From positions 248,001 through 312,000 of the forward strand of contig JAUSMA010000060.1 in the NCBI GenBank assembly GCA_030645475.1: 64,000 bases of DNA, read 5' to 3'. This DNA comes from Nitrospirota bacterium. GTDB taxonomy: Bacteria; Nitrospirota; Nitrospiria; Nitrospirales; Nitrospiraceae. The translations under genes and the position numbers were made by a program. The notes under the pieces are model-generated. The model was not told the origin of the DNA. It searched no databases and saw only the letters and a list, made by a program, of their open reading frames with translations. This document shows, piece after piece, positions 46,303 to 64,000 of this stretch; within the stretch, counting starts at the first letter, position 1, and the number at the start of each line of letters is the position of its first letter.

Positions 46303-47814
46303 GTGCAGATCTGGCAATTTCCGCAACAATTGAAGGACAGAGGTGCGGTGTGTTCATGTGCCGTTTTGCGATCTGCCTCTATCGTGTGCCTGGTCCTCAG
46401 CTTGGGCACAATCAGTACCCTGACTGCAGTTGCGGCAGAACCGGACGTTATGGGACCTCACGGCGGTTTAATCGCCACACCTGTAGCCGACCCAAGCCAA
46501 CGGGCAGGTGCCGGCCAGCGCGTCACCATTGAAAGTACCAATCTCGAAAGTCTGCTATTGGAAAAGGGCGTCATCACCCAAGATGACTGGATTCGCCTGA
46601 AAGCGGAGGAAGAACGGCGCGTCTTCGAGCAGACGCCGGAAATGCAAATGGCTGGCAATCCCCGCTGGTATGAGCGCATCCGGATCAGCGGGTACACCCA
46701 GTTTCGTATCTCCGCCGGACCCACCGACGGCAAGATGAGCATCCCTCAGGGCGATAGCAACGCAACCCACCAGCCGCGCGAGTTCTACTTCCGGCGCATC
46801 CGCCTCGTGTTCCAGGGGCAGGTTTCAGAACGGCTGGCATTCTTTCTTCAGGGCGCGTTCGAGGGTGACCAAGGAACTCAAAATATGTTTAATAAGGAAA
46901 TTATCGATGCCTACGCCGACTACTACCTGACAAAAGACAAGATTCACCGGCTCCGGTTTGGTCAACACCGAGTGCCGAATTCCTTCGATACCTACCGCTC
47001 GAGCACAAATCGGCAGGAACTCGACCGGCATGAATCGATTCAAAGCGGAGCGCCGGGAGAGCGAGACCTCGGCATTGCGTATTACTGGAGTCCCAAAATC
47101 GCCCAAGAACGGTTTGCCCAATTAGCGGCCTATCACAATGGCCCTGGCGACTATGGCGTCTTCGGCGTCATGGTCTACAACGGGCAAGGTCGCAACAAAC
47201 AGGAAATGAACGGCGACAAGCATGTCGGCGCACGATTGGCCTACCCATTTGAACTGCCGAACGGGCGACTCTTGGAAACCGGCGTGATGGCCTTTCGCGG
47301 GATTTACTCAGTCAGCGGCGCCGGTTCACCCACCAGCACCAGTTCGGCAGCGAAGTGTCACGATGCTTTAAATAAGGAGGGGGGTTGCGACGTCAACGAT
47401 CAGCGCATCACTGCCTACCTATGGACGCCACCGCAACCTTGGGGACTACTTGCCGAGGGTACGATCGGACGCAATGCGAAGCGGAACGCGGGCAATAACA
47501 CCATTGAAGAATCGTCGCTCCGAGGCGGTTATGTGCAAGGGTACTATACCTGGCAATACTCGGATGTCGGCCAGCTCACCCCCTATGTGCGCTTCGGTGA
47601 ATATTATGGTGGAATCAAAGCAACCAGTGGCGCGCCAGACGGCCAATCGCGAACTTGGAACTTCGGTCTGGTCTGGGAACCGGATACCCACTGGAGGTTT
47701 GTCACCGAACTCATGTTAAAAGATGGCCTCAACGAGACTCTGGTGCGCAATCAGGTGCAGGATCAATACGATGCCTCCTTGTTGCGATTCCAGGCTCAGT
47801 TCTTCTTTAATTAA
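46303..47814 (+). CDS. outer-membrane porin, phosphate-selective porin O/P type
   Basis: 503 residues. A signal peptide (VCLVLSLGTISTLTAVAA) is followed by a short coiled-coil segment (NLESLLLEKGVITQDDWIRL) and a 16-strand-type beta barrel ending in Phe-Asn (RFQAQFFFN). The RRIRLVFQGQVSERLAFFLQ and YYLTKDKIHRLRFGQHRVPN segments match the OprO/OprP family. A GTG start at 46303 has GGGAG ten bases upstream. The PHO box upstream supports a role in phosphate or polyphosphate uptake. Confidence 0.88.
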   Translation: MQIWQFPQQLKDRGAVCSCAVLRSASIVCLVLSLGTISTLTAVAAEPDVMGPHGGLIATPVADPSQRAGAGQRVTIESTNLESLLLEKGVITQDDWIRLKAEEERRVFEQTPEMQMAGNPRWYERIRISGYTQFRISAGPTDGKMSIPQGDSNATHQPREFYFRRIRLVFQGQVSERLAFFLQGAFEGDQGTQNMFNKEIIDAYADYYLTKDKIHRLRFGQHRVPNSFDTYRSSTNRQELDRHESIQSGAPGERDLGIAYYWSPKIAQERFAQLAAYHNGPGDYGVFGVMVYNGQGRNKQEMNGDKHVGARLAYPFELPNGRLLETGVMAFRGIYSVSGAGSPTSTSSAAKCHDALNKEGGCDVNDQRITAYLWTPPQPWGLLAEGTIGRNAKRNAGNNTIEESSLRGGYVQGYYTWQYSDVGQLTPYVRFGEYYGGIKATSGAPDGQSRTWNFGLVWEPDTHWRFVTELMLKDGLNETLVRNQVQDQYDASLLRFQAQFFFN

Positions 47815-48974: not shown

Positions 48975-49055
48975 CAGCTTCTCTCCGTTCTGCTATCGTA
49001 TGAACGGAGAGGAGAGCACTGCGTGCAGTGACTCACCGCCATGGGAAGGAACAAC

Positions 49056-49736
49056 ATGCAGGCTTGGGTGGTTTCTATATTAGGCGTCCTTGTTTCGCTC
49101 TCGGTCGGGTGTGCAACTGCTCCGCCCCCACGCGCTGTCTATCAGGACAATGCGACGGCCATCAGGCTTCAGTTCGATAGCAAGGCAGGCACAGGCCACA
49201 GTCATCCGGCCAAGGTCAGCCCCGATGAGCTACGGCATATTCTGGCCGGGGTCAGAATACAGCCACGGAGTTCGTTCGCTCCCTCCTTTCTCACCGGAGA
49301 AGCGTCACTGGTCTCAGCCTTCTCCAAAGAGGAACAGACATTCCTCGCTCCCCATCTGAGTCGGGCCTTGGCGGAAGCGAAGCCCGAAGAACTGATCGCG
49401 TTTTATCGACGCGTCTCCACTTCAACCGTTGGGCTGGCCATCACGTCGGGCGGTCTCTTTGTCCACGGCAGGCACCTGTATGTGATTCTGGCAAATGATC
49501 GCACCTTACCATCTGAAGGCATGAGCCAGAGTATCGTGTCAGAGATCGATCCTGTCGAGAACCCGCTCCTCCCGATTAGCCGAACAAGTTTTCGCGCCAC
49601 GTTTGTCCCGGCGACTTCCATGGTGCCGGAAGATGAGCGGTGGCCTTGGCCTTACATCGATCCGGGCCGTTTGGTGGTCATAGATCTTGTTCAAATGGCA
49701 CGGGAAATGAAACTAAAGCCTCCGATTTCACGATAG
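49056..49736 (+). CDS. predicted lipoprotein
   Basis: 226 residues. The signal peptide WVVSILGVLVSLSVGC ends in a lipobox-like SVGC. GGAAGGA lies six bases upstream of the ATG at 49056. The mature part has no named domain; it contains LSRALAEAKPEELIAFYRRV and a beta-rich C-terminal half. It follows the PstS-type gene by 81 bases on the same strand, so it is probably part of the phosphate-controlled transcript from 46.2 kb. Function unknown. Confidence 0.7.
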   Translation: MQAWVVSILGVLVSLSVGCATAPPPRAVYQDNATAIRLQFDSKAGTGHSHPAKVSPDELRHILAGVRIQPRSSFAPSFLTGEASLVSAFSKEEQTFLAPHLSRALAEAKPEELIAFYRRVSTSTVGLAITSGGLFVHGRHLYVILANDRTLPSEGMSQSIVSEIDPVENPLLPISRTSFRATFVPATSMVPEDERWPWPYIDPGRLVVIDLVQMAREMKLKPPISR

Positions 49737-50208
49737 TGATTGCCATCAGCATGGCAGGTGCTTAACAGGATGGTGCCATAGGATCTGATCTGATTCGGGA
49801 GACAGTTCTATTCTTAGGGCCAATCCTCATAGTAGGCTCTTGGGAGAAGGAAGGAGTGACACTAGGTCGTGAGCGGAAAAGAGGGTGTACTCGCAGCGAT
49901 GCCGCCAGAGAACAATCTTGCCGCATAGGTCCAGGCTCTCGACCTGGAAACGACTCTGGCTCACCTGTGCCATAACCCCAGTCAACCTTCTTCTTTCCGC
50001 CCGCTATTGCGATACCGTAACGCCCTCCCATGAGGCAGCCATTCTCCTTCTGAGTTAACACAAAATTTACAAATCTGTGACGGTGCATGAATGGACGCGG
50101 TATAGGCTCACCAGCGATAAAAGACACAGCTTACAATAGTCTTGCGTCATGATGGTGTGCACAGGGCATGAGATGGAAATAGGTTCATTGAGGATGAGAG
50201 GAGCGCGC
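49737..50208. other. gene-free region upstream of pstS
   Basis: A 472-bp gap. It contains the PHO box at 50054-50082 and otherwise small imperfect hairpins only, for example TGCCAT and its complement near 49742 and a CCAGG stem near 49929. I compared it by eye with common riboswitch signatures and saw no match. An opposite-strand frame here (49762-50127) looks spurious. Confidence 0.5.
50054..50082 (+). promoter_or_regulatory. PHO box upstream of pstS
   Basis: Half-sites GTTAACA (50054-50060), ATTTACA (50065-50071) and TGTGACG (50076-50082) with 4-bp spacers, in the same orientation as the gene. It is 126 bases from the chosen pstS start. Confidence 0.75.
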
Positions 50209-51219
50209 ATGCTAGTTGTCCGGTTGGTATCCTGTATGGCGATGGCCGGGTTTCTCGGCGTCTTCGGCTCAGGGACTCATCTGGCACAGGGCGCCCCAAC
50301 GGCTCTCATCAAAGTCGACGGATCGAGCACGGTCTATCCCCTCACGGAGGCGGTAGCGGAAGAATTTCAGAAGGCGAACCGGGGCCGCATACGAGTGACG
50401 GTGGGCATCGCCGGCACAGGCGGTGGATTCAAGAAGTTCTGCCGGGGTGAGACGGATATCGCAGATGCCTCTCGCCCGATCCTGAAGGAGGAAATGGAGC
50501 TTTGCCAGAAGAATGGGATTGGTTATTATGAGCTGCCCATTGCCTTCGATGCCTTGACGGTGGCAGTGAGCCCGAAGAACACCTGGATTACCGCTATGAC
50601 AGTCGAAGAGCTGAAGAAAATCTGGGAGCCGGCGGCCCAGAGCAAAATTACCAAATGGAACCAGATCCATTCCGACTGGCCCGATGCCCCGATTGTGCTC
50701 TTTGGCGCCGGCTCCGATTCTGGCACCTTCGATTACTTTACCGATGCCATCGTCGGAAAGGCTAAAGCCAGCCGTGGCGACTACACCGCCAGTGAAGACG
50801 ATAACGTGCTCGTGCAGGGAATTGAGAATAACAAGAATGCGCTGGGATATATCCCCTTTGCCTATTACGCCGCTCAGATGAAGAAGCTCAAAGCGGTGGC
50901 CATTGTCGGAAAGAGCGGACCGGTGCTGCCCAGTGCAGAGAATGTCATCAAGGGCAGTTATCAGCCCCTGTCGCGCCCTCTCTTCATTTATGTCAGTGAC
51001 GCAGCGGCGAAACGCCAAGAGGTGAAAGACTTCGTCGACTATTACCTGACGGAAGGGCCGAAACTGATCGCAGAAGTCCGCTATATCCCTTTGCCGGAAC
51101 CAGCCTATGGCATGGCCCGTGAGCGCTTCAAAAAAGGCGTGCTGGGTACCGGTTTCGGCGGTGTGCCTGAAGTGGGACTGGCGGTTGAAGAAATCATGAG
51201 CCGTCCTCCGAAACGGTAG
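50209..51219 (+). CDS. pstS: phosphate ABC transporter substrate-binding protein PstS
   Basis: 336 residues from the ATG at 50209, which has GAGGAG six bases upstream. A signal peptide ([17 protein letters not shown]) leads to a PstS fold with ligand loops [35 protein letters not shown] and [16 protein letters not shown]. All the phosphate-contact Ser/Thr/Asp positions appear to be kept. It is the canonical partner of pstCAB downstream, but is separated from pstC by a 208-bp palindromic repeat. Confidence 0.93.
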
Positions 51220-51260
51220 TATTCATGAGGTGTTCGTTCAGGCTCTGGCTCGAAGTTCTG

Positions 51261-51468
51261 TCTAGCAGGCTGCGGAAAAACTCGGCGTATGCGAAAAAAC
51301 GGCCAAAATACTTGGAGTGGCACCGCGGCCAGAACAACCACAGGATGCTCAAAAAGGCCGTCCAGCAAGGCCGCAGCGAGCGAAGAGGCGAGTCATACCC
51401 TAGTGGTACGTTGAGCCTCTTCGTGAAGCGAGAACGCCGCTGGCGGATTTTTTCAGCATCCTGCCAGA
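51261..51468. repeat. palindromic MITE-like element between pstS and pstC
   Basis: The ends are inverted copies: the 20 bases at 51261-51280 and at 51449-51468 match at 17 of 20 positions. A second nested repeat starts at 51341 (CAGGATGCTCAAAAA) and pairs with the same right end. Inside, GAAGAGGC (51382-51389) pairs with 51415-51422. No reading frame of note. The architecture is that of a non-autonomous palindromic repeat, and as RNA it would fold into a long branched hairpin. Confidence 0.75.
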
Positions 51469-51487
51469 GGAAAGGCTTGGTCGGTCG

Positions 51488-52447
51488 ATGAACACATCCA
51501 GCATGGCAGAGCAGGAGGCGATGCATATCAGTAAGCCAAATGCCATTGAAGAGGCGGCTGCCCGTCGCCGTACACGCCAACAACGCGAACGGGTGATCGA
51601 GAGCGGGCTCTTTCTTGCCGCCCTGACATCCGTTGCGACGACGGTGACGATTATCGCTGTGCTGCTGTCTGAATCGATCGGGTTTTTCAAAACGGTCCCG
51701 CTCACGGACTTTTTTACCGATACACTCTGGACCCCCCTCTTTGCCAATCCTCACTATGGGATCTTGCCGCTGCTTGCCGGCACCCTCGTCACCAGTGCGG
51801 TTGGGTTACTCGTGGCGATTCCCCTTGGGACGGTGGCGGCCATCTATCTTTCCGAGTTTTCCTCGTCTCGTTTACGGGAAATCATGAAGCCTGCCCTAGA
51901 GCTGCTGGGCGCAGTTCCGACCGTCGTGTATGGGTATTTTGCGTTGCTCGTCGTGACCCCGGCACTTCAACGACTCTGGCCCGATCTCCCGGGATTCAAC
52001 ATGCTCGGCCCCGGTATCGTCATCGGGATTATGATTATGCCCTTTGTGATCTCGCTCAGCGAGGATGCGATGCGCGCCGTACCGATGGTGCTGCGGGAAG
52101 GCTCCTACGCGATGGGCGCGACTCGACTCCAGACTGCCTGGCGTGTGGTCGTGCCGGCGGCAACCTCCGGCCTCGTGGCCGCCTATGTCCTCGGAATTTC
52201 GCGAGCGGTCGGCGAAACCATGGTGGTGGCGATCGCGGCGGGGCAGAATCCGAATTTGACATGGAACCCCCTGGAGCCGGCGGCCACGATCACCGCCTAC
52301 ATCGTTCAAGTGGCGCTCGGTGATCTGCCCCATGGCAGCATTGGCTACCAAAGCATCTTTGCCGCCGGGCTCGTGCTGGCCGTGATGACGTTTGCCTTCA
52401 ACATTCTCGGACATGTTCTGCGGAAGCGATTTCGGGAGGTCTACTGA
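51488..52447 (+). CDS. pstC: phosphate ABC transporter permease PstC
   Basis: 319 residues. A charged N-terminal tail of about 35 residues is followed by six predicted membrane helices and the permease EAA-type loop (LREGSYAMGATRLQTAWRVV). The segment GISRAVGETMVVAIAAGQNP is typical of PstC. The overlap with pstA (TGATG) shows translational coupling. Confidence 0.94.
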   Translation: MNTSSMAEQEAMHISKPNAIEEAAARRRTRQQRERVIESGLFLAALTSVATTVTIIAVLLSESIGFFKTVPLTDFFTDTLWTPLFANPHYGILPLLAGTLVTSAVGLLVAIPLGTVAAIYLSEFSSSRLREIMKPALELLGAVPTVVYGYFALLVVTPALQRLWPDLPGFNMLGPGIVIGIMIMPFVISLSEDAMRAVPMVLREGSYAMGATRLQTAWRVVVPAATSGLVAAYVLGISRAVGETMVVAIAAGQNPNLTWNPLEPAATITAYIVQVALGDLPHGSIGYQSIFAAGLVLAVMTFAFNILGHVLRKRFREVY

Positions 52448-53370
52448 TGTCCACACCATCACTTCCCCATTCCTGTCCTTCCATCGCTCGGCGCAAGTTC
52501 GCCGAGGCCCTGTTCAAAATCGTGGGGCTCGGCTCATTGACCATCGCAGTCGGAACCCTCGCCCTCTTATTCGGGGCGCTGCTGTACCAAGGTGCCAGTC
52601 AAATCGACTGGCAGTTCCTCATGTCATTTCCTTCTCGACACGCCGCGCAAGCCGGCATTCTACCGGCCTGGGTCGGCTCGACCTTGATCATGCTGGTCAC
52701 GGCAGTCGTGGGCATCCCGCTGGGCGTGGCAGCGGCTATCTACTTGGAAGAGTATGCGCGAAAAACATGGATGACCGAATTGATCGAGGTCACGGTCACG
52801 AACCTGGCCGGCGTGCCCTCGATCATTTATGGCTTGCTGGCGCTGGGTTTGTTCGTCTATATCCTTGGCCTGGGAGAAAGCATTCTGGTGGCCGGCCTCA
52901 CCTTGGCACTCTTGATTCTGCCGGTCGTCATCGTCACCACGCGTGAAGCGATTCGTGCGATTCCGGTCGAGATCCGGGAGGCAGCCTATGGATTGGGCGC
53001 CACCAAATGGCAGACGGTCTCGCATCACGTCCTCCCCTATTCGGCGGCCGGCATCCTGACGGGCATTATCCTGGCTTTGAGCCGGGCTATCGGGGAGACT
53101 GCCCCCATCGTCACCATCGGTGCTCTGACGTTTATTGCCTTTCTGCCTCCGGCTCCGTTCACGACGCAACCGCCATATATCTCCTTTGACTGGCTCCTCT
53201 CTCCCTTTACGATCATGCCGATTCAAATGTTCGGGTGGGTGTCGAGACCGGGCGAGGACTTCGCCGGCAACGCCGCGGCGGCCGGGGTGCTGTTGGTCGG
53301 GATGACTCTGACAATGAACGGGCTGGCGATCTACTTGCGATACCGTATGCGAAAGCAGGTGAGCTGGTAA
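52447..53370 (+). CDS. pstA: phosphate ABC transporter permease PstA
   Basis: 307 residues, six predicted membrane helices. The EAA loop reads [20 protein letters not shown] and is followed by [20 protein letters not shown], the PstA signature region. It starts on the last base of the pstC stop and ends one base before pstB. Confidence 0.94.
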
Positions 53371-53371
53371 C

Positions 53372-54172
53372 ATGGATGTCGCCGACTCGACATACCCTCA
53401 GGAATGGCCCAAGCCGCTCAAGGCGGAGACCCGCGCCCTCAGTTTCTCCTATGGAAACCGCTTGGCGCTGAAGAACTTGTCGCTCCCCATCGCCGAATAT
53501 CAGATCACGGCCTTGATCGGGCCATCAGGCTGCGGAAAATCGACCTTTCTCCGCTGTTTTAATCGAATGCATGACCTCTATGCGGGAAACCGTTACGAGG
53601 GTGAAATTCTCCTATACCCGGATCAACGCAATATTCTCGCGCGTGAGGTCGATCCTATCGAAGTGCGGATGCGGATCGCCATGGTATTTCAAAAGCCAAA
53701 CCCCTTTCCCAAGTCCATTTATGACAATGTCGCCTACGGATTGAGGGTAAGAGGGACCACTGAACGCCAGCTCTTGGATGAAAAGGTCGAACAGGCCTTG
53801 CGAAGCGCCGCCTTGTGGGAAGAGGTCAAGGACCGGTTGACGGCTCGGGCGACCTCCCTCTCCGGCGGCCAGCAGCAACGGCTCTGTATCGCCAGGGCGT
53901 TGGCAACCGATCCCGAATTGTTGTTGTTGGATGAACCGACATCGGCGCTCGATCCGATTGCGACGGCCAGCATTGAAGAATTATTGCTCGACTTGAAAAG
54001 TCGTGTGACAATCCTCATCGTGACACACAATATGCAGCAGGCGGCGCGGGTGTCCGATTGGACGGCCTTCATGTACCTCGGTGAATTGGTGGAGTTTGGC
54101 CTCACCAAACAGCTCTTTACGACACCTTCCAAGAAACAGACCGAAGACTACATCACCGGACGATTTGGTTGA
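53372..54172 (+). CDS. pstB: phosphate ABC transporter ATPase PstB
   Basis: 266 residues. Walker A is [20 protein letters not shown], the [18 protein letters not shown] stretch is characteristic of PstB, the ABC signature is LSGGQQQRL, Walker B is [13 protein letters not shown] and the switch His lies in [13 protein letters not shown]. It energises PstCA. Confidence 0.97.
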
Positions 54173-54177
54173 ACCCT

Positions 54178-54870
54178 ATGAGACAACGCCATTTTGATGA
54201 AGAACTCGTCGAGTTAAAAACCAAGCTCCTGCGCATGGCCGGTCTGGCCGAAGATCAAATCGATAAGGCGCTCACCGCATTGGTCAACCGCGATTCGGCC
54301 CTGGCCAGACAGGTGATCGAGCGGGATCACCAGGTCAACGCATTGGATGTGGAGATCGACGAAGACTGCATCCGCCTGCTCGCCCTCCATCAGCCTGCCG
54401 CGCGAGACTTGCGGCTGATCACAACCGCGATGAAAATCGCCACCGAACTCGAGCGCATCAGTGACCTGGCAGAAAATGTCTGTGAGCGGTCGATCGAACT
54501 GAACGAAGAGCCGCAGTTGAAGCCCTATATCGACATCCCACGGATGGGACGGTGGGCGCGGACGATGGTGAAAGAAAGCATCGATGCGTTCGTGAAGGAC
54601 GACGCCACCCTCGCGAGGAAAGTGCTGGCAGACGACGACTTCGTCGACGATCTCATGGAACAACTGTTCCGTGAGCTGCTCTCCTTCATGCTCGAAAGCC
54701 CGCAAACCATTACACGAGCCATTCGCTTAAGCTTCATCGCCAAATACCTCGAACGGATGGCCGACCATGCCACGAATATCGCCGAACTGGTGGTCTATCT
54801 CGTCGAGGGTAAGATCATCCGCCACACCACCCCGCCGGCATCTTCCATAAACGGCCTCTCACAGCAGTAA
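54178..54870 (+). CDS. phoU: phosphate signalling regulator PhoU
   Basis: 230 residues of two three-helix bundles. Both metal-binding motifs are present (ITTAMKIATELERISDLAEN and IAKYLERMADHATNIAELVV). It normally links PstSCAB to the sensor kinase and represses the Pho regulon when phosphate is plentiful. A TTG at 54169 overlaps the pstB stop, but the ATG at 54178 is the more usual choice. Confidence 0.95.
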   Translation: MRQRHFDEELVELKTKLLRMAGLAEDQIDKALTALVNRDSALARQVIERDHQVNALDVEIDEDCIRLLALHQPAARDLRLITTAMKIATELERISDLAENVCERSIELNEEPQLKPYIDIPRMGRWARTMVKESIDAFVKDDATLARKVLADDDFVDDLMEQLFRELLSFMLESPQTITRAIRLSFIAKYLERMADHATNIAELVVYLVEGKIIRHTTPPASSINGLSQQ

Positions 54871-55066: not shown

Positions 55067-55333
55067 CTAGGCCACGAAATCTGTCGAGAAGAGCGTGTAG
55101 ACAAATCGGTGTCGACGCAGGACGACCCTGTTGCATCGGGCAAGTTGGTCGACGCGGTCGAAAATTTGATTCCAGGTGTATTGAGGCATGAGGCAGATGA
55201 GCGTGTCCAGACTGATCACGGTCTGCTCACTCAGATGGTCGAGAATGGTTGCCGTGAGCGCATCGGCATCGTGACGCTCTCCGCGCAACGGATGGATGTC
55301 AAAATCTGACTCAAGAAGAGAATTGATCGACAT
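55067..55333 (-). CDS. small protein of unknown function, last gene of PHO-box operon
   Basis: 88 residues from the ATG at 55333, which has a perfect AGGAGG five bases upstream. The sequence is helical with a possible winged-helix shape (TLICLMPQYTWNQIFDRVDQL, then basic VVLRRHRF). It may bind DNA, but this is only a visual impression. It lies nine bases after the PsiE gene, and the run of five genes is on the minus strand behind a PHO box. Confidence 0.6.
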   Translation of the reverse strand: MSINSLLESDFDIHPLRGERHDADALTATILDHLSEQTVISLDTLICLMPQYTWNQIFDRVDQLARCNRVVLRRHRFVYTLFSTDFVA

Positions 55334-55342
55334 AAGCACCTC

Positions 55343-55879
55343 CTAGTGAGATTGTGAAAGTGATGGCCCTGATTGACCGGCCTGCTGCGTACACCCCGTT
55401 GGCGACGGACTGTAACGGATAGCCACAATACGCATAAGCCCCAAGGTGATGACGATGCCGCCCAGTATCGCGAATTGATGCCACTCCCCGCCTGTAAACC
55501 ATCGCGAGATGATCTCCGTCAGCATGACGACGAGCACGGTATCCACGATAAAGGTGACGCGTACTCGTCCGTCGGAGCAATAGGTCAGCGTCGTTCTCAA
55601 GACCTCCACAACGGCGAGTAACGTGAGTGCATCGACAATAATATGTCGGAGCGCGACCTCAAGATCAGCGGACAGGAGAAGCCGCAAGTCGAGAAACGTT
55701 TTCACGACGCCGCCTGCGAGACCGAGAAGAATCGTCAGGGTGAGCAGGCTCAGGATGAATCGCGTGCCGGCTTCCCAGACTCGCGTCATGTCATAGGCCG
55801 TGAGCGTGGTGACGAAGCGTCGAGGCCAGCCGTTCGATAGAGTCTGTTCCATGGAGGTGTAGATCATCTTTCTATTCAT
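55343..55879 (-). CDS. psiE: phosphate-starvation-inducible PsiE family membrane protein
   Basis: 178 residues from the ATG at 55879. Four membrane helices are predicted (FILSLLTLTILLGLAGGVV, ALTLLAVVEVL, TFIVDTVLVVMLTEIIS, FAILGGIVITLGLMRIVAI). The VRVTFIVDTVLVVMLTEII segment fits the PsiE family, whose E. coli member is induced by phosphate starvation; the molecular function is unknown. The upstream PHO box agrees with that. Its start overlaps the preceding small gene by 8 bases. Confidence 0.8.
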   Translation of the reverse strand: MNRKMIYTSMEQTLSNGWPRRFVTTLTAYDMTRVWEAGTRFILSLLTLTILLGLAGGVVKTFLDLRLLLSADLEVALRHIIVDALTLLAVVEVLRTTLTYCSDGRVRVTFIVDTVLVVMLTEIISRWFTGGEWHQFAILGGIVITLGLMRIVAIRYSPSPTGCTQQAGQSGPSLSQSH

Positions 55880-55997
55880 GCCCCGAAAAAACGCTCCAGG
55901 CATCGCGACCGAGTGACACGATGAACAGCATCACGCCGAGTACTAATGCGAAGCGTATGCCCATTGTAAAGAGTGAGGTGAAGAGATCGAATGCCAT
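55872..55997 (-). CDS. 41-residue single-span membrane protein
   Basis: Start at 55997 with a purine-rich AGGGGA about ten bases upstream. One membrane helix (MGIRFALVLGVMLFIVSLG) is flanked by a short polar N-terminus and a C-terminus ending in SGHE. It overlaps the PsiE gene, so translation is coupled. It may be an accessory subunit of PsiE; inference only. Confidence 0.5.
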   Translation of the reverse strand: MAFDLFTSLFTMGIRFALVLGVMLFIVSLGRDAWSVFSGHE

Positions 55998-56049
55998 GTC
56001 TGCGAGTCCCCTATCGTGTGACAGCTTTTCTGGTATGAGCCATGAACGA

Positions 56050-56433
56050 TTAAAACTCATCGATTGAAACCGGATGTAAGAGATCACGGACGGATAAGAT
56101 CCCCACGATCGAGTCGTCCTTGAGTACGGCTAAATGGCGAGTGCCATGCTGCTCCATCAAATCGGCCGCGTCGGTCACAGACCGGCGGCCATCGATGCCG
56201 ATGACCGGGCTGCTCATGATCTCTTCCACGGGGATATAATAGGGCACCCGCTCCGCCCCGACGACTTTCCTGACAATATCCGGCTCGGTCACGATGCCGA
56301 CGATACGGCCTTGCTTTGTCACGAATAGACTTCCGATTTTGTGGGTGGTCATGAGTTTCGCCGCCTCAATGGCTGAGGTGCCGGCTTCGATGTTGACCAT
56401 TTTGCGGGTCATGAGCCGATCGACGGTGATCAT
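56050..56433 (-). CDS. CBS-domain pair protein
   Basis: 127 residues made almost entirely of two CBS domains (ITVDRLMTRKMVNIEAGTSA with IVGIVTEPDIV, and VEEIMSSPVIGIDGRRSVTD with IVGILSVRDLL). Such stand-alone pairs usually bind adenine nucleotides and sense energy state. Start at 56433 has AGGGAGG upstream and overlaps the previous stop in an ATGA. Within a phosphate-controlled operon it may connect nucleotide level to the membrane proteins beside it; inference. Confidence 0.85.
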   Translation of the reverse strand: MITVDRLMTRKMVNIEAGTSAIEAAKLMTTHKIGSLFVTKQGRIVGIVTEPDIVRKVVGAERVPYYIPVEEIMSSPVIGIDGRRSVTDAADLMEQHGTRHLAVLKDDSIVGILSVRDLLHPVSIDEF

Positions 56434-56738
56434 AGGGCCTCCCTTGGTTGTGTCCATGTGGTATGGCGCGAGTCGATGGGACGGTCAAATGACGATGCGC
56501 AGTGGGGGCAGACGACCACATCCATGCTTCTGACGGAGGTCATCAACGTGCTGAAGCTCTGCCCGGTCTGCATCCGAAGCACTGGGAAGATGACTCGTGC
56601 ATGCATGGCCAGTAATGTTTGAATGGCCCGAACGATCGGTACGGCTAACAAGAGAGAGATCGTCAGCACGAACAGATAGGCTTCGGTGTTTTTCATGACC
56701 TGCTCCATGGTGGTGTATGGGTCGCTCTGCATATTCAC
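56430..56738 (-). CDS. membrane-anchored protein with CPHC motif
   Basis: 102 residues (92 if the ATG at 56708 is used). One membrane helix (YLFVLTISLLLAVPIVRAI), then a soluble tail with VVVCPHCASSFDRP, a single CxxC that could bind metal or be redox active. First gene behind the reverse-oriented PHO box at 56773-56801. It overlaps the CBS gene by 4 bases. Not recognised as a known family. Confidence 0.6.
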   Translation of the reverse strand: MNMQSDPYTTMEQVMKNTEAYLFVLTISLLLAVPIVRAIQTLLAMHARVIFPVLRMQTGQSFSTLMTSVRSMDVVVCPHCASSFDRPIDSRHTTWTQPREAL

Positions 56739-56772
56739 GTGGCTCTACCTTACCCCTAGGACATTCCAGTCC

Positions 56773-56801
56773 TGTGAATTCCTCGTAACGTCTCTGTAAA
56801 C
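56773..56801 (-). promoter_or_regulatory. PHO box upstream of the CBS/PsiE operon
   Basis: Read on the minus strand: GTTTACA (56795-56801), CGTTACG (56784-56790) and ATTCACA (56773-56779), each separated by 4 bp. Only this orientation fits the xTxxACx pattern of the other boxes. It ends 35 bases before the first gene of the operon. Confidence 0.65.
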
Positions 56802-57252: not shown

Positions 57253-57488
57253 GCTGGCGAGCCTCGTTGTATCTCCGAATACGAAGACCGGACGGGACAA
57301 GCCTGTCGGTCATGGATAGAAGTAGGACAGCCCGGAGAGATCCATGCATTTATATCAATAAATATGCATATTATCATGCACTTACAATCTATCTATGAAC
57401 TAAAACATCATCCACCCGTTCGTATCATTGTTGTGCGAATCACAGGTCTGCTACCGTGCGGACTCGATCACACGAATGGGAGGCACCT

Positions 57489-57731
57489 GTGACAGCTGTC
57501 GATAGCCTGATGCTGGATGCGAAGCAAGCGATCATGGAAGAACATCATCGCCGTTTTCAAACCTTTCAGCAGGAAGGACGTTGGGAGGAGGCGCTCCAAC
57601 AAATTCATGTCACACTCAGTTGTGCGGCAGATCTCCTGAATGAATCGCTCCGAGTCCTCGACGAAGCCATTGCGACTCACGACCCTATTTCTGCCGGCGA
57701 CGCCACTCCCCCTCCCAGCGCGACATCCTAA
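57489..57731 (+). CDS. small helical protein of unknown function
   Basis: 80 residues from a GTG at 57489 with GGGAGG five bases upstream. The chain is predicted to be mostly helical (AKQAIMEEHHRRFQTFQQEG, EEALQQIHVTLSCAADLLNE) with a low-complexity Pro/Ser tail. It stands directly upstream of the phoB-type gene and its PHO box. Family not recognised. Confidence 0.55.
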   Translation: MTAVDSLMLDAKQAIMEEHHRRFQTFQQEGRWEEALQQIHVTLSCAADLLNESLRVLDEAIATHDPISAGDATPPPSATS

Positions 57732-57808: not shown

Positions 57809-57870
57809 TCCTACGGCATGGCTGGATTGCTTTGGGACTCAGCCCATCATGCAGCAGAGATGGAGACCGC

Positions 57871-58584
57871 ATGCCTCTTGCTCCCAAGAAGGTTCTGATC
57901 GTCGAAGATGAGGCGGACATCGCCCAACTCGTGAAACTCTACCTGGAGAAGGAAGGGTTTCACGCGAATATTGCGCAGTCTGGCGCCGAAGCGCTGCAGC
58001 TCATAAAGTCCGGGCATCCAGACCTTCTGATTCTTGACCTCATGCTGCCAGAAATGGACGGCCTTGAAGTCTGCAAGAAAGTCCGCAACGCGCCGGACAC
58101 CGCGCTGCTTCCGATCATCATGCTGACGGCCAAAGCCGAGGAATCCGACACCATTGTCGGCCTCGAACTCGGCGCCGACGACTATGTGGCGAAACCGTTC
58201 AGCCCCAAAGCGCTGATCGCCAGGGTCAAAGCGCTCTTTCGTCGACTCGAACGGACAGACGATCCCAAGCAATCGTCCTTTAGCTTCGGGCCGCTCGTCA
58301 TGGAACTCTCCCGACACGAAGTGACCGTAAAGGGCAAAGAGGTCGCACTCACGGCCAAAGAGTTCGGCCTGCTCGAACACCTACTGCGTCACCCTGGGCG
58401 TGTGCTGACACGGGATGTCTTGCTGAATGCCATATGGGGCTACGACTACTATGGGACCACGCGAACCGTGGATGTGCATATCCGCCGGCTGAAGATGAAA
58501 ATCCCGCTACTCGATGACGCCATCATCTCGGTCAAATCGTTGGGGTACAAACTATCGGACCACGCGACTGAGAAGCAGCGCTAA
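57871..58584 (+). CDS. phoB: PhoB-type response regulator
   Basis: 237 residues, OmpR/PhoB class. The receiver domain has the acidic pair in VLIVEDEAD, phospho-acceptor Asp56 in LLILDLMLPEMDG, the Thr in IIMLTAKAE and the Lys in DYVAKPFSP. The winged-helix effector follows (LTAKEFGLLEHLLRHPGRVL, TRTVDVHIRRLKMKI). ATG at 57871 has GGAG five bases upstream. The setting in a Pst/PhoU island with a PHO box in its own promoter supports PhoB. No histidine kinase gene is adjacent. Confidence 0.88.
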   Translation: MPLAPKKVLIVEDEADIAQLVKLYLEKEGFHANIAQSGAEALQLIKSGHPDLLILDLMLPEMDGLEVCKKVRNAPDTALLPIIMLTAKAEESDTIVGLELGADDYVAKPFSPKALIARVKALFRRLERTDDPKQSSFSFGPLVMELSRHEVTVKGKEVALTAKEFGLLEHLLRHPGRVLTRDVLLNAIWGYDYYGTTRTVDVHIRRLKMKIPLLDDAIISVKSLGYKLSDHATEKQR

Positions 58585-61796: not shown

Positions 61797-61820
61797 GAGA
61801 CGCGTGGACGGCCGCGTCTC
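61797..61820 (-). terminator. hairpin terminator overlapping the PhoX stop
   Basis: An 8-bp stem (GAGACGCG, 61797-61804 with 61813-61820) directly at the end of the PhoX-type gene, followed on the minus strand by CTATTTGG. The stem includes part of the stop codon. Confidence 0.5.
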
Positions 61821-63351
61821 AGTGTTGAAACCGGAAAGGGATCTTGAACCCAGTGATCTTGATGATGTCGTCCGTCGCATAATCGTCGATCTTCGGCATC
61901 AAGCCGTCGCTGCTGTGCTGAATCGACAAATAGGCCGTCCGCCCGTCTGCAGAGAACTTAAAGCCGCTCGGTTCTGCGGACGAGTCCTTCACCGACAGAA
62001 TCTTGATGCAGCCGTCGGTTTTGAGATTAAGGTCTGCGCCATCCGGCAAACAGGCGAAGATGTCTCCGTTTGGATTGTCCTCGATGACATAATGATTCCC
62101 GGTCTTCGGTTGGAAAGCAAAGTTGTCCGGCTGGTTCATGTCCTGATCGCCTTCAACAAATCGGTTCACGACGACCGTTCGCTGAGTCGCGCTCGCAGTC
62201 AGGGGATCGGAATCTACACCGCAAAGGACCTCCCCATAGTTGCCCCCTTCGGCCAGACCGGTATTCGTCCAGCAGAAACGAACACCAGGCCCCTCGAACA
62301 TGTCATCCAACTCAAGATCCTCTGGACGATAGTAGCCGGTCGCTCCCATGGTATTGGCGTCTGTCCGTGCGTTCGCCGCGCTCACATTGATCCAGGCGCC
62401 ATTCCCGATTTCACAGCCCTGCCCGAATTGCTGCGTGGCGCTCTGGCAGGACACCTGAAGCGCATACACATTGCCGGCAGCAAAAGGAGATTCCGCAAGC
62501 GTGGCAATGGGGGCGTTGGTGGTCCTGGGGATCGCCGGAACAAACTTAAACATGGCGCCGCCGTCGGCGTTCGCCGGAGTGCCCGGTCGCAGTTCATCTC
62601 CGGCATAGACTACACCCTGGGGCGTCACTCCGATTCCCTCCCACGCCATCTTGGGCAACGCCGTCCGCTTCACAATCGAGGTGGAGGGTAATCCGTTCTC
62701 ATCGACGATGGAACCCAGCGCACGATCCGTGATCGTCTGATTCGTCACGGCCAACGGATTCAGGATCTCATAGGCCCCGCCGTCACTGGCCTCTTCTGTC
62801 GCCAGGATCGTCTGCCACGGCGTACGGCGAATGCCGTCGCACGCTATCGTCCCGCGCAGGATCGTCTCCACCGAGCCGTCCGACAGCTTGATGCGCTGTA
62901 CGGCAGGATTGAATTTTCTGACCAAGCCACCCGGCAGAAAGGTCCCAAGGTCTTGACGCCCTCCCTCAATGCAGAAAATCAGGTGTGTCGGACTCTCGTC
63001 ACTCGGCCAAAACGCGAACATGTCCGCCGCATTGGCGGCTATCCGAGTCACGTACTCGGCCTTGAGACCATCGGCCAACAACACATGCTCCGAAGCCCTT
63101 TGAGTCGGTGTTCGATAATCTCCTGTCGTGGGTGAAGCCGATTCCTTCAGGGGCCTGCCGACTCCGAACCACACGGTGGAAGACCGCTCCAGTCCACGCT
63201 GGACGAGCGCGCCAAAATCTAACCCCTCGAACCCTTCGAATTCACTCGCCTGGGCAGACACAGCCGGAGCCGCAAGAATAGAAGCGGCCAAACCGACTTT
63301 CGCCGCAGCGAACCCCCATTTCACCAATCGCTTCTTGAGTTTTGCCATCAT
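61819..63351 (-). CDS. PhoX-type (DUF839) predicted phosphatase
   Basis: About 510 residues from the ATG at 63351, with AAAGGAG just upstream. A Sec-type signal peptide (VGLAASILAAPAVSA) replaces the twin-arginine signal usual for PhoX. The body is a DUF839 beta-propeller: FCIEGGRQDLGTFLPGG, TPWQTILATEEASDGG, YRPEDLELDD, FCWTNTG and FVEGDQDMNQPDNFAFQPKT. PhoX enzymes are calcium/iron alkaline phosphatases induced by phosphate limitation. A PHO box about 330 bases upstream agrees with that. Its activity is not proven by sequence. Confidence 0.8.
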   Translation of the reverse strand: MMAKLKKRLVKWGFAAAKVGLAASILAAPAVSAQASEFEGFEGLDFGALVQRGLERSSTVWFGVGRPLKESASPTTGDYRTPTQRASEHVLLADGLKAEYVTRIAANAADMFAFWPSDESPTHLIFCIEGGRQDLGTFLPGGLVRKFNPAVQRIKLSDGSVETILRGTIACDGIRRTPWQTILATEEASDGGAYEILNPLAVTNQTITDRALGSIVDENGLPSTSIVKRTALPKMAWEGIGVTPQGVVYAGDELRPGTPANADGGAMFKFVPAIPRTTNAPIATLAESPFAAGNVYALQVSCQSATQQFGQGCEIGNGAWINVSAANARTDANTMGATGYYRPEDLELDDMFEGPGVRFCWTNTGLAEGGNYGEVLCGVDSDPLTASATQRTVVVNRFVEGDQDMNQPDNFAFQPKTGNHYVIEDNPNGDIFACLPDGADLNLKTDGCIKILSVKDSSAEPSGFKFSADGRTAYLSIQHSSDGLMPKIDDYATDDIIKITGFKIPFRFQH

Positions 63352-64000
63352 CGACTCCTTTCCACATTTCCTCACCGTGCCGGATGAAACCAGCTGCAGC
63401 GAGCGTGCCATTGTGAATGTCGCCACTCGTGATTGACTGAGCCCTCTCTGCCCGAACGACTGTGCCATCTCCGCCCTCCTCCAGTTGGGTGCGTGAAAGG
63501 CTGGGAACGGTCGCAGACTGAGAGACATGCAGGATCACATGCTGTCCTGATGTCCGATTGAGCCGGGAACCGCACAGCATCAAGAAGCTGCAGTCTCCTT
63601 CTTGCCGCCACGCTCTCGGCACTCCCACAGGAAGCAGTGTCACAGCAAGCCGTTACGTCTCGATCTGACTGGCCTCAAGAACGCGTAACAGCCATGTTAA
63701 GTAATTACCTGTTCACGCGAGGTGAGATCGTGTGGATCGACGGAGGGAGAATAAGACTAGGACCGAGGCGCGCGCGGAGCAAACCAGAGCAGACCAGTTT
63801 TCAGCCACCTTGTCGACATGGGCAGCCGTTCGATCAACACAAGAACCTCCAATTCCCACGGACTGAACCGCATGATCTCCAAGAGACAGGTGCTCTGGAA
63901 GACGGACAGTATCCATGCCACTGATTCGTTACGACATTGTTTCTGTTGTATGAAGATCGTGCAACAGCGTGGTTTCATCGGAGCCGAATTCGCAGCAGGC
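63352..64000. other. region without a supported gene
   Basis: About 650 bp. It contains the PHO box at 63684-63701 and otherwise only short overlapping frames. A minus-strand frame at 63757-63978 contains FSPWELEVLVLIER, faintly like a LuxR-type helix-turn-helix, but it is broken and has no start signal. It could be the remnant of a gene or the edge of one lying beyond the window. Confidence 0.45.
63684..63701 (-). promoter_or_regulatory. PHO box upstream of the PhoX-type gene
   Basis: Read on the minus strand: CTTAACA (63695-63701), 4-bp spacer, TGTTACG (63684-63690). Two half-sites only. It is 332 bases from the PhoX start, which implies a long untranslated leader or an unrecognised upstream gene. 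Confidence 0.5.

Follow-up and report, generated by a model that had tools for sequence, protein, structure and literature searches.

A PsiE operon with a two-CBS protein and a small winged-helix protein as a candidate phosphate-starvation membrane module in the Nitrospirales

The DNA analysed here, referred to as the window, is a stretch of 64,000 nucleotides from a Nitrospirota bacterium. It carries five open reading frames on the minus strand (56738-55067), located where a sequence-only reading had placed them and convergent with the pstSCAB-phoU operon (Table 1). In operon order, we refer to them as g1, g2 or the CBS gene, g3, g4 or psiE, and g5.

Table 1. The PsiE operon and the phosphate genes around it (window positions).
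Feature	Position	Strand	Description	Basis
PHO box	56772..56801	-	direct repeat in three copies, period 11 nt: GTTTACA.., CGTTACG.., ATTCACAG	
g1	56430..56696	-	88-aa single-span membrane protein	dN/dS, hydropathy
g2 (CBS)	56050..56433	-	127-aa protein, two CBS domains	Pfam, purifying selection
g3	55872..55997	-	41-aa single-span membrane protein	dN/dS, one TM segment, homologues
g4 (PsiE)	55343..55867	-	four-span membrane protein, ~174 aa, start uncertain	Pfam, hydropathy
g5	55067..55333	-	88-aa small winged-helix protein (predicted)	AlphaFold2, structural matches, dN/dS
pstS-pstC-pstA-pstB-phoU	50149..54870	+	own PHO box at 50054	
Phosphate-selective porin, OprO/OprP type	46303..47814	+	window's strongest PHO box, 46185	
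PhoX-type phosphatase	61819..63528	-	PHO box 63701 (-); independent motif check	

We placed the start of g1 at the ATG AAA AAC at 56696, behind a GGAG that reads as a Shine-Dalgarno sequence. This position fits the homologues because protein conservation is continuous from 56696, and we consider it a likelier start codon than the GTG at 56738. PsiE starts at about 55867, with alternatives at 55903 and at 55879, where ATGAATAG would overlap the stop of g3. The g5 start is preceded by AGGAGG. The genes had been described as lying in overlapping order, which holds at two of the four junctions: the stop of g1 and the start of the CBS gene share an ATGA, and g3 and psiE either adjoin directly or share a few bases. 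At the other two junctions there are gaps, of 52 nt between the CBS stop and the g3 start and of 9 nt between psiE and g5. The overlap or abutment of stops and starts at g1/CBS and g3/psiE suggests translational coupling.

Comparison with orthologues from relatives by the Nei-Gojobori method revealed that all five genes, including the one for the 41-residue protein, are under purifying selection. The dN/dS values were 0.02-0.45 for g1 against close relatives (full-length comparisons; short stretches in remote relatives gave higher values), 0.02-0.27 for the CBS gene, 0.06-0.35 for g3, 0.06-0.19 for psiE and 0.13-0.42 for g5. Hydropathy indicates one transmembrane (TM) span in g1, four in PsiE, none in g5, and one in the 41-residue protein, in agreement with its earlier description as single-span. 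Pfam gave no match above cut-off for g1, g3 and g5, and none of the five proteins matches PstS, PstC, PstA, PstB or PhoU. A scan for consensus promoters and terminators yielded no excess over shuffled sequences. The CPHC motif, once taken as the mark of the first protein, is a local feature of the tail of g1 that is missing in more distant homologues. We dropped the idea of a zinc or redox centre at this site, as g1 of loci L078-L082 lacks CPHC.

Direct repeats of the GTTAACA type, also with an 11-nt period, precede the OprO/P porin gene and pstS. These two sites seeded a 30-nt position weight matrix (PWM), whose training set consisted only of 60 pstS/porin upstream regions of relatives, with no PsiE upstreams among them. 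Of 79 PsiE-operon upstreams, 67% exceeded the 99th percentile of shuffled sequence, versus 0-8% of the upstreams in nine control gene sets (c7, lipoprotein, SixA, Ppx, PhoU, g5, c8, CHAD and PstB). The three top sites in the window lie upstream of the porin gene, pstS and a gene that only afterwards was identified by Pfam as encoding a PhoX phosphatase, so that the motif was tested blind in this case. The site before the operon scores 10.5; because 0.8 chance scores as high are expected per 64 kb of Markov sequence, this single site is weak evidence alone. On its 3' side lie a conserved GGAATGT (~56767-56761) and then a -10-like TAAGGT (~56752-56747). The repeats, the GGAATGT element and the TAAGGT-like -10 could be aligned across 16 loci, and the alignment persists where g1, the CBS gene and g3 are missing and psiE comes first. 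Hence, the phosphate control first read from a single PHO box is borne out at the level of the motif, both by PWM enrichment and by conserved position in relatives. The operon appears to be part of the phosphate-starvation regulon and would be expressed under starvation.

The best PhoB-/PhoR-like matches (G000:C14:213297 and 214754) both score under the NCBIfam cut-offs. Further PHO-like sites in the window precede a 135-aa lipoprotein-like ORF (59435, minus strand) and a PhoB-like response regulator gene at 57832-58584 (57780, plus strand). A conserved 91-aa protein with neither a family match nor a PHO box is encoded at 57456-57731 (+), and is the divergent neighbour of PsiE in a clade devoid of the CBS gene. 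A 231-aa probable lipoprotein lacking a Pfam match is encoded at 49041-49736 (+); its family recurs next to pstS, porins and CBS-PsiE across Nitrospirales.

PsiE orthologues were found in 34 of 61 genomes, ranging from genus to order. We surveyed the neighbourhoods of 80 named PsiE loci by means of profile searches, tallies and a maximum-likelihood tree with midpoint root. The CBS gene lies immediately upstream of psiE in 42 loci, and CBS-PsiE is the widest pair because it is represented in both halves of the midpoint-rooted tree. Downstream, g5 follows psiE in 58 of the 80 loci, in effect in all of the Nitrospiraceae; a sister clade keeps CBS-PsiE without g5, and often has SixA in its place. 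Profile-recognised g1 and g3 are limited to one clade of 25 rows of the survey. Short single-span g1-like ORFs are also found 5' of the CBS gene in L084, L097 and L128. Homologues of g3 are present in L078 and L080-L082. Within the 25-row clade, the CBS gene is missing in L061, L064, L066 and rows L068-L077. Because psiE has no CBS gene next to it in 38 of the 80 loci, the CBS gene is not obligatory. We rejected the notion that every genome lacking it in cis carries it in trans, because a full-length relative is present elsewhere in only some such genomes. The full five-gene order is found in two subclades, between which PsiE identity is about 60%.

These neighbourhoods indicate that the conserved core is CBS-PsiE across the Nitrospirales and PsiE-winged-helix in the Nitrospiraceae. 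The gene-order conservation that the sequence-only reading had proposed to check thus stands for these two pairs and fails for the complete order, a late form. Nor is a single obligatory unit of all five genes supported, given the single clade with g1 and g3 and the CBS gene that, as judged from its distribution, has been lost at least twice. In 71 of the 80 PsiE loci (some on short contigs), pst/porin or SixA/Ppx/CYTH-CHAD genes lie within 7 kb, and the nine loci with no pst/porin or polyphosphate genes nearby are mostly on short contigs. CHAD is a polyphosphate-binding module (PMC6537752). Scattered genes unresponsive to phosphate would have spoken against the operon, and the core departs from that picture: PsiE adjoins pst or polyphosphate genes, and PHO boxes precede the PsiE operon in most loci. 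By these genomic comparisons, this is a real conserved phosphate-regulon module that was elaborated into its five-gene form only late.

The assignment of g4 to the PsiE family is confirmed by a Pfam PsiE (PF06146) score of 34.1 bits against a curated cut-off of 23.9, and all 43 homologues match the same profile at E<=0.1 (best 1.1e-12). Hydropathy peaks place its TM segments at residues 31-49, 63-81, 96-114 and 126-144, and four helices are also present in a low-confidence model (pLDDT 69.5, pTM 0.37). A fold search with this low-confidence model was uninformative, with a best Z of 7.5 and mixed matches (NINJ1, SdhD, ORAI and MSL1). Searching by sequence retrieved no solved PsiE structure, and two queries for PsiE on plasmids gave no match. 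In the operon-type proteins, D103, T111 and E112 of TM3 and R140 of TM4 are each found in 43 of 43 sequences. Other aligned PsiE proteins, including that of E. coli, have an Arg in TM3 at the position of T111, and all PsiE aligned share E82 in TM2. The genome to which the window belongs codes for a second PsiE (L001, G000:C69:150149-150511), which has the Arg in TM3 like the canonical type and lies away from phosphate genes.

As proposed, g2 codes for a two-CBS protein: Pfam CBS matches two stretches above cut-off (E=5.7e-25, 87.8 bits). The motifs GIVTEPD and GILSVRD provide one T-x-x-D and one S-x-x-D, respectively, one per repeat. Relatives of this protein are present in the PDB. A second two-CBS paralogue, 63% identical, is encoded about 7 kb past the window (L156, G000:C60:319075-319455), close to another pstS-like gene and a lipoprotein of the c8 family, which constitute a second phosphate cluster.

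A survey of 198 Nitrospirota genomes, in which frames were read and six were scanned with Pfam, showed that many PsiE matches sit in frames of about 300 residues. The N-terminal half of these fusions is a cytosolic sensor and the C-terminal half is the PsiE membrane domain. Pfam identified one BLUF-PsiE fusion (L174, G057:C6:768312-768671) and five protoglobin-PsiE fusions (L186, L191, L192, L196 and L200), and most remaining loci of L186-L203 resemble protoglobin-PsiE by eye. A CBS-PsiE fusion was not seen. In each of the six f16-family genomes that we checked, protoglobin-PsiE has a two-CBS protein next to it, encoded immediately downstream and codirectionally in five cases and divergently in one; in other families, such a protein was found at none of 11 loci. 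No pst genes were near any of the 15 longer loci. The domain architecture suggests that the PsiE domain serves as the output of light (BLUF) and probable oxygen (protoglobin) sensors. Taking together the fusions and the CBS neighbours in two settings, PsiE is most likely a sensor-coupled membrane effector. These fusions also lend support to a possible adenylate input beside PsiE. We read the CBS protein as a sensor subunit chiefly because PsiE appears coupled to cytosolic sensors and CBS proteins neighbour it in two separate settings; it would most likely be a detachable nucleotide sensor of PsiE. As the fused sensors sit on the PsiE subtype with Arg in TM3, the mechanism may have changed in the Thr-Glu operon type.

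For g5, an AlphaFold2 model from 16 sequences reached a mean pLDDT of 77.7, with values of about 90 over residues 41-80. Its topology is H-E-H-H-E-E (H16-36, E39-41, H42-48, H54-66, E70-75 and E78-83). Structural matches with Z of 10-11 (up to 11.1) include Z-alpha domains, DsrD, MarR, PadR and cullin winged helices. The predicted fold is clearly that of a winged helix, which had been a guess for this 88-residue protein. Residues W54, F58, D62, R66, L72, R74 and Y79 are invariant among 34 homologues, and the FeoC family profile matched none of the 34 family members at E<=0.1. The family has seven matches in the genome, and small winged-helix paralogues of g5 occur several per genome (for instance L148 and L149, G000:C29:95137-128640). 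Moreover, in four relatives (L152-L155) a g5-type winged helix is encoded after a four-CBS protein, within a cluster of Hsp20 and phosphoribosyltransferase-like genes (names assigned by eye). This adds another instance in which a CBS protein and a g5-type winged helix adjoin each other.

The E. coli PsiE (b4030) also belongs to the Pfam PsiE family (80.6 bits), is a small membrane protein and has a historical tie to phosphate starvation. Unlike the operon studied here, E. coli psiE is solitary, with no CBS or winged-helix neighbours, and its product carries the TM3 Arg instead of Thr-Glu. In addition, genome-wide ChIP-seq and RNA data revealed neither PhoB binding nor PhoB control of E. coli psiE (PMC10294691). 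A direct profile comparison of operon-type and E. coli PsiE found no similarity, and the link between both proteins thus rests on the Pfam profile. The BLUF-PsiE and protoglobin-PsiE proteins found elsewhere in the Nitrospirota resemble the operon in tying a PsiE membrane half to a cytosolic sensor and, in family f16, in the adjacent CBS protein; they differ in that the sensor is fused, TM3 has the Arg and no pst genes lie nearby in the loci checked. The PsiE (orf14) of the transmissible stress-tolerance locus of enterobacteria (tLST/LHR) is a named PsiE-family protein (PMC7010813), but is encoded alongside ClpG, sHSP, KefB and Trx in a stress island, and shares under 30% identity with core-genome PsiE (PMC8290217). 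As for g5, FeoC of the iron transporter FeoABC is likewise a small winged helix, whose gene closes an operon that also encodes a membrane protein; as cited in PMC5519574, FeoC binds FeoB and protects it from FtsH degradation. FeoC has another membrane partner and no family match to g5, so the analogy is functional only. DsrD of dissimilatory sulfite reductase operons is a stand-alone small winged helix within an operon (Z 10.2, rmsd 1.7 over 66 residues), in an unrelated context; as its Z is tied with many other winged helices, this likeness is one of fold only. In literature searches, which left subscription journals largely outside, no text joined PsiE with CBS domains or with Nitrospira, and nothing was found on PsiE as the output of a globin sensor. 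Among the best 20 of 34 matches, PsiE and BLUF came together only in one E. coli multi-stress paper.

We propose, at about even odds, that the operon encodes a phosphate-starvation membrane module consisting of a PsiE effector, a CBS sensor and a winged-helix partner or regulator. Under low phosphate, a PhoB-type regulator would switch on pst, the porin, PhoX and this operon in concert. The effector in the membrane would be PsiE, spanning it four times and probably having both termini in the cytoplasm. The two-CBS protein would act as a separate cytosolic sensor of the adenine nucleotide ratio, binding PsiE and altering its state, a role equal to that of the fused globin or BLUF elsewhere. The winged-helix protein may be a cytosolic partner of PsiE, an adaptor comparable to FeoC for FeoB, or a regulator, and the two single-span proteins may be lineage-specific accessory subunits. 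The output would most likely tune phosphate or ion flux across the membrane, keeping it in step with Pst uptake and with the polyphosphate reserves. In a broader and more tentative reading, which we favour less than evenly, PsiE, perhaps a small gated channel or a regulator of transport, would be a membrane effector domain of general use that bacteria combine with interchangeable cytosolic sensors: a fused protoglobin for oxygen, a fused BLUF for light and a separate CBS protein for adenylates. In Nitrospira, this domain would have been wired into phosphate and polyphosphate homeostasis.

Other explanations have to be weighed against this module. The proteins could mediate membrane-tethered control of transcription, with g5 as a DNA-binding regulator that PsiE, alone or jointly with the CBS protein, retains until the energy or phosphate state changes. 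The basic wing of the predicted g5 fold (RRHR/RRRG) is consistent with this, as are its standing as the most constant neighbour of PsiE in the Nitrospiraceae and the stress cluster in which winged-helix relatives come after a four-CBS protein. However, many small winged helices bind proteins, the presumed recognition helix of g5 contains acidic residues, including the invariant D62, and the sister clade does without g5; we regard such control as unlikely, if worth keeping in mind. It is rather improbable that the five are just small Pho-regulon genes under a common promoter, each acting alone and forming no complex. The variable content behind the same promoter, with g1-CBS-g3 present, partly deleted or absent, fits that explanation, but the CBS-PsiE adjacency is maintained over deep divergence and recurs beside protoglobin-PsiE, and the suggested translational coupling at g1/CBS and g3/PsiE also argues against it.

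A function in general envelope or stress protection, instead of phosphate handling, could be considered from the globin and BLUF inputs, which are unrelated to phosphate, and from the presence of PsiE in the tLST/LHR, whose oxidative-stress module is required for chlorine resistance (PMC8290217, PMC7010813). That function may hold for the enterobacterial tLST PsiE. For the operon in the window we find it very unlikely, as the promoter and the neighbours here are of the phosphate uptake and polyphosphate type.

For decades, PsiE has been named phosphate-starvation-inducible with no assigned function. Our study describes a lineage where, by motif, PsiE sits in the phosphate regulon with named partners. 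Since E. coli psiE lies outside the Pho regulon (PMC10294691), the Nitrospira lineage would be better suited for studying PsiE in connection with phosphate. The orphan PsiE family is now open to tests on the ligand of the CBS protein, on CBS-PsiE binding and on the response of the fusions to light and oxygen. The most useful outcome is that the fusions point to the class of protein to which PsiE may belong, a sensor-coupled membrane effector.
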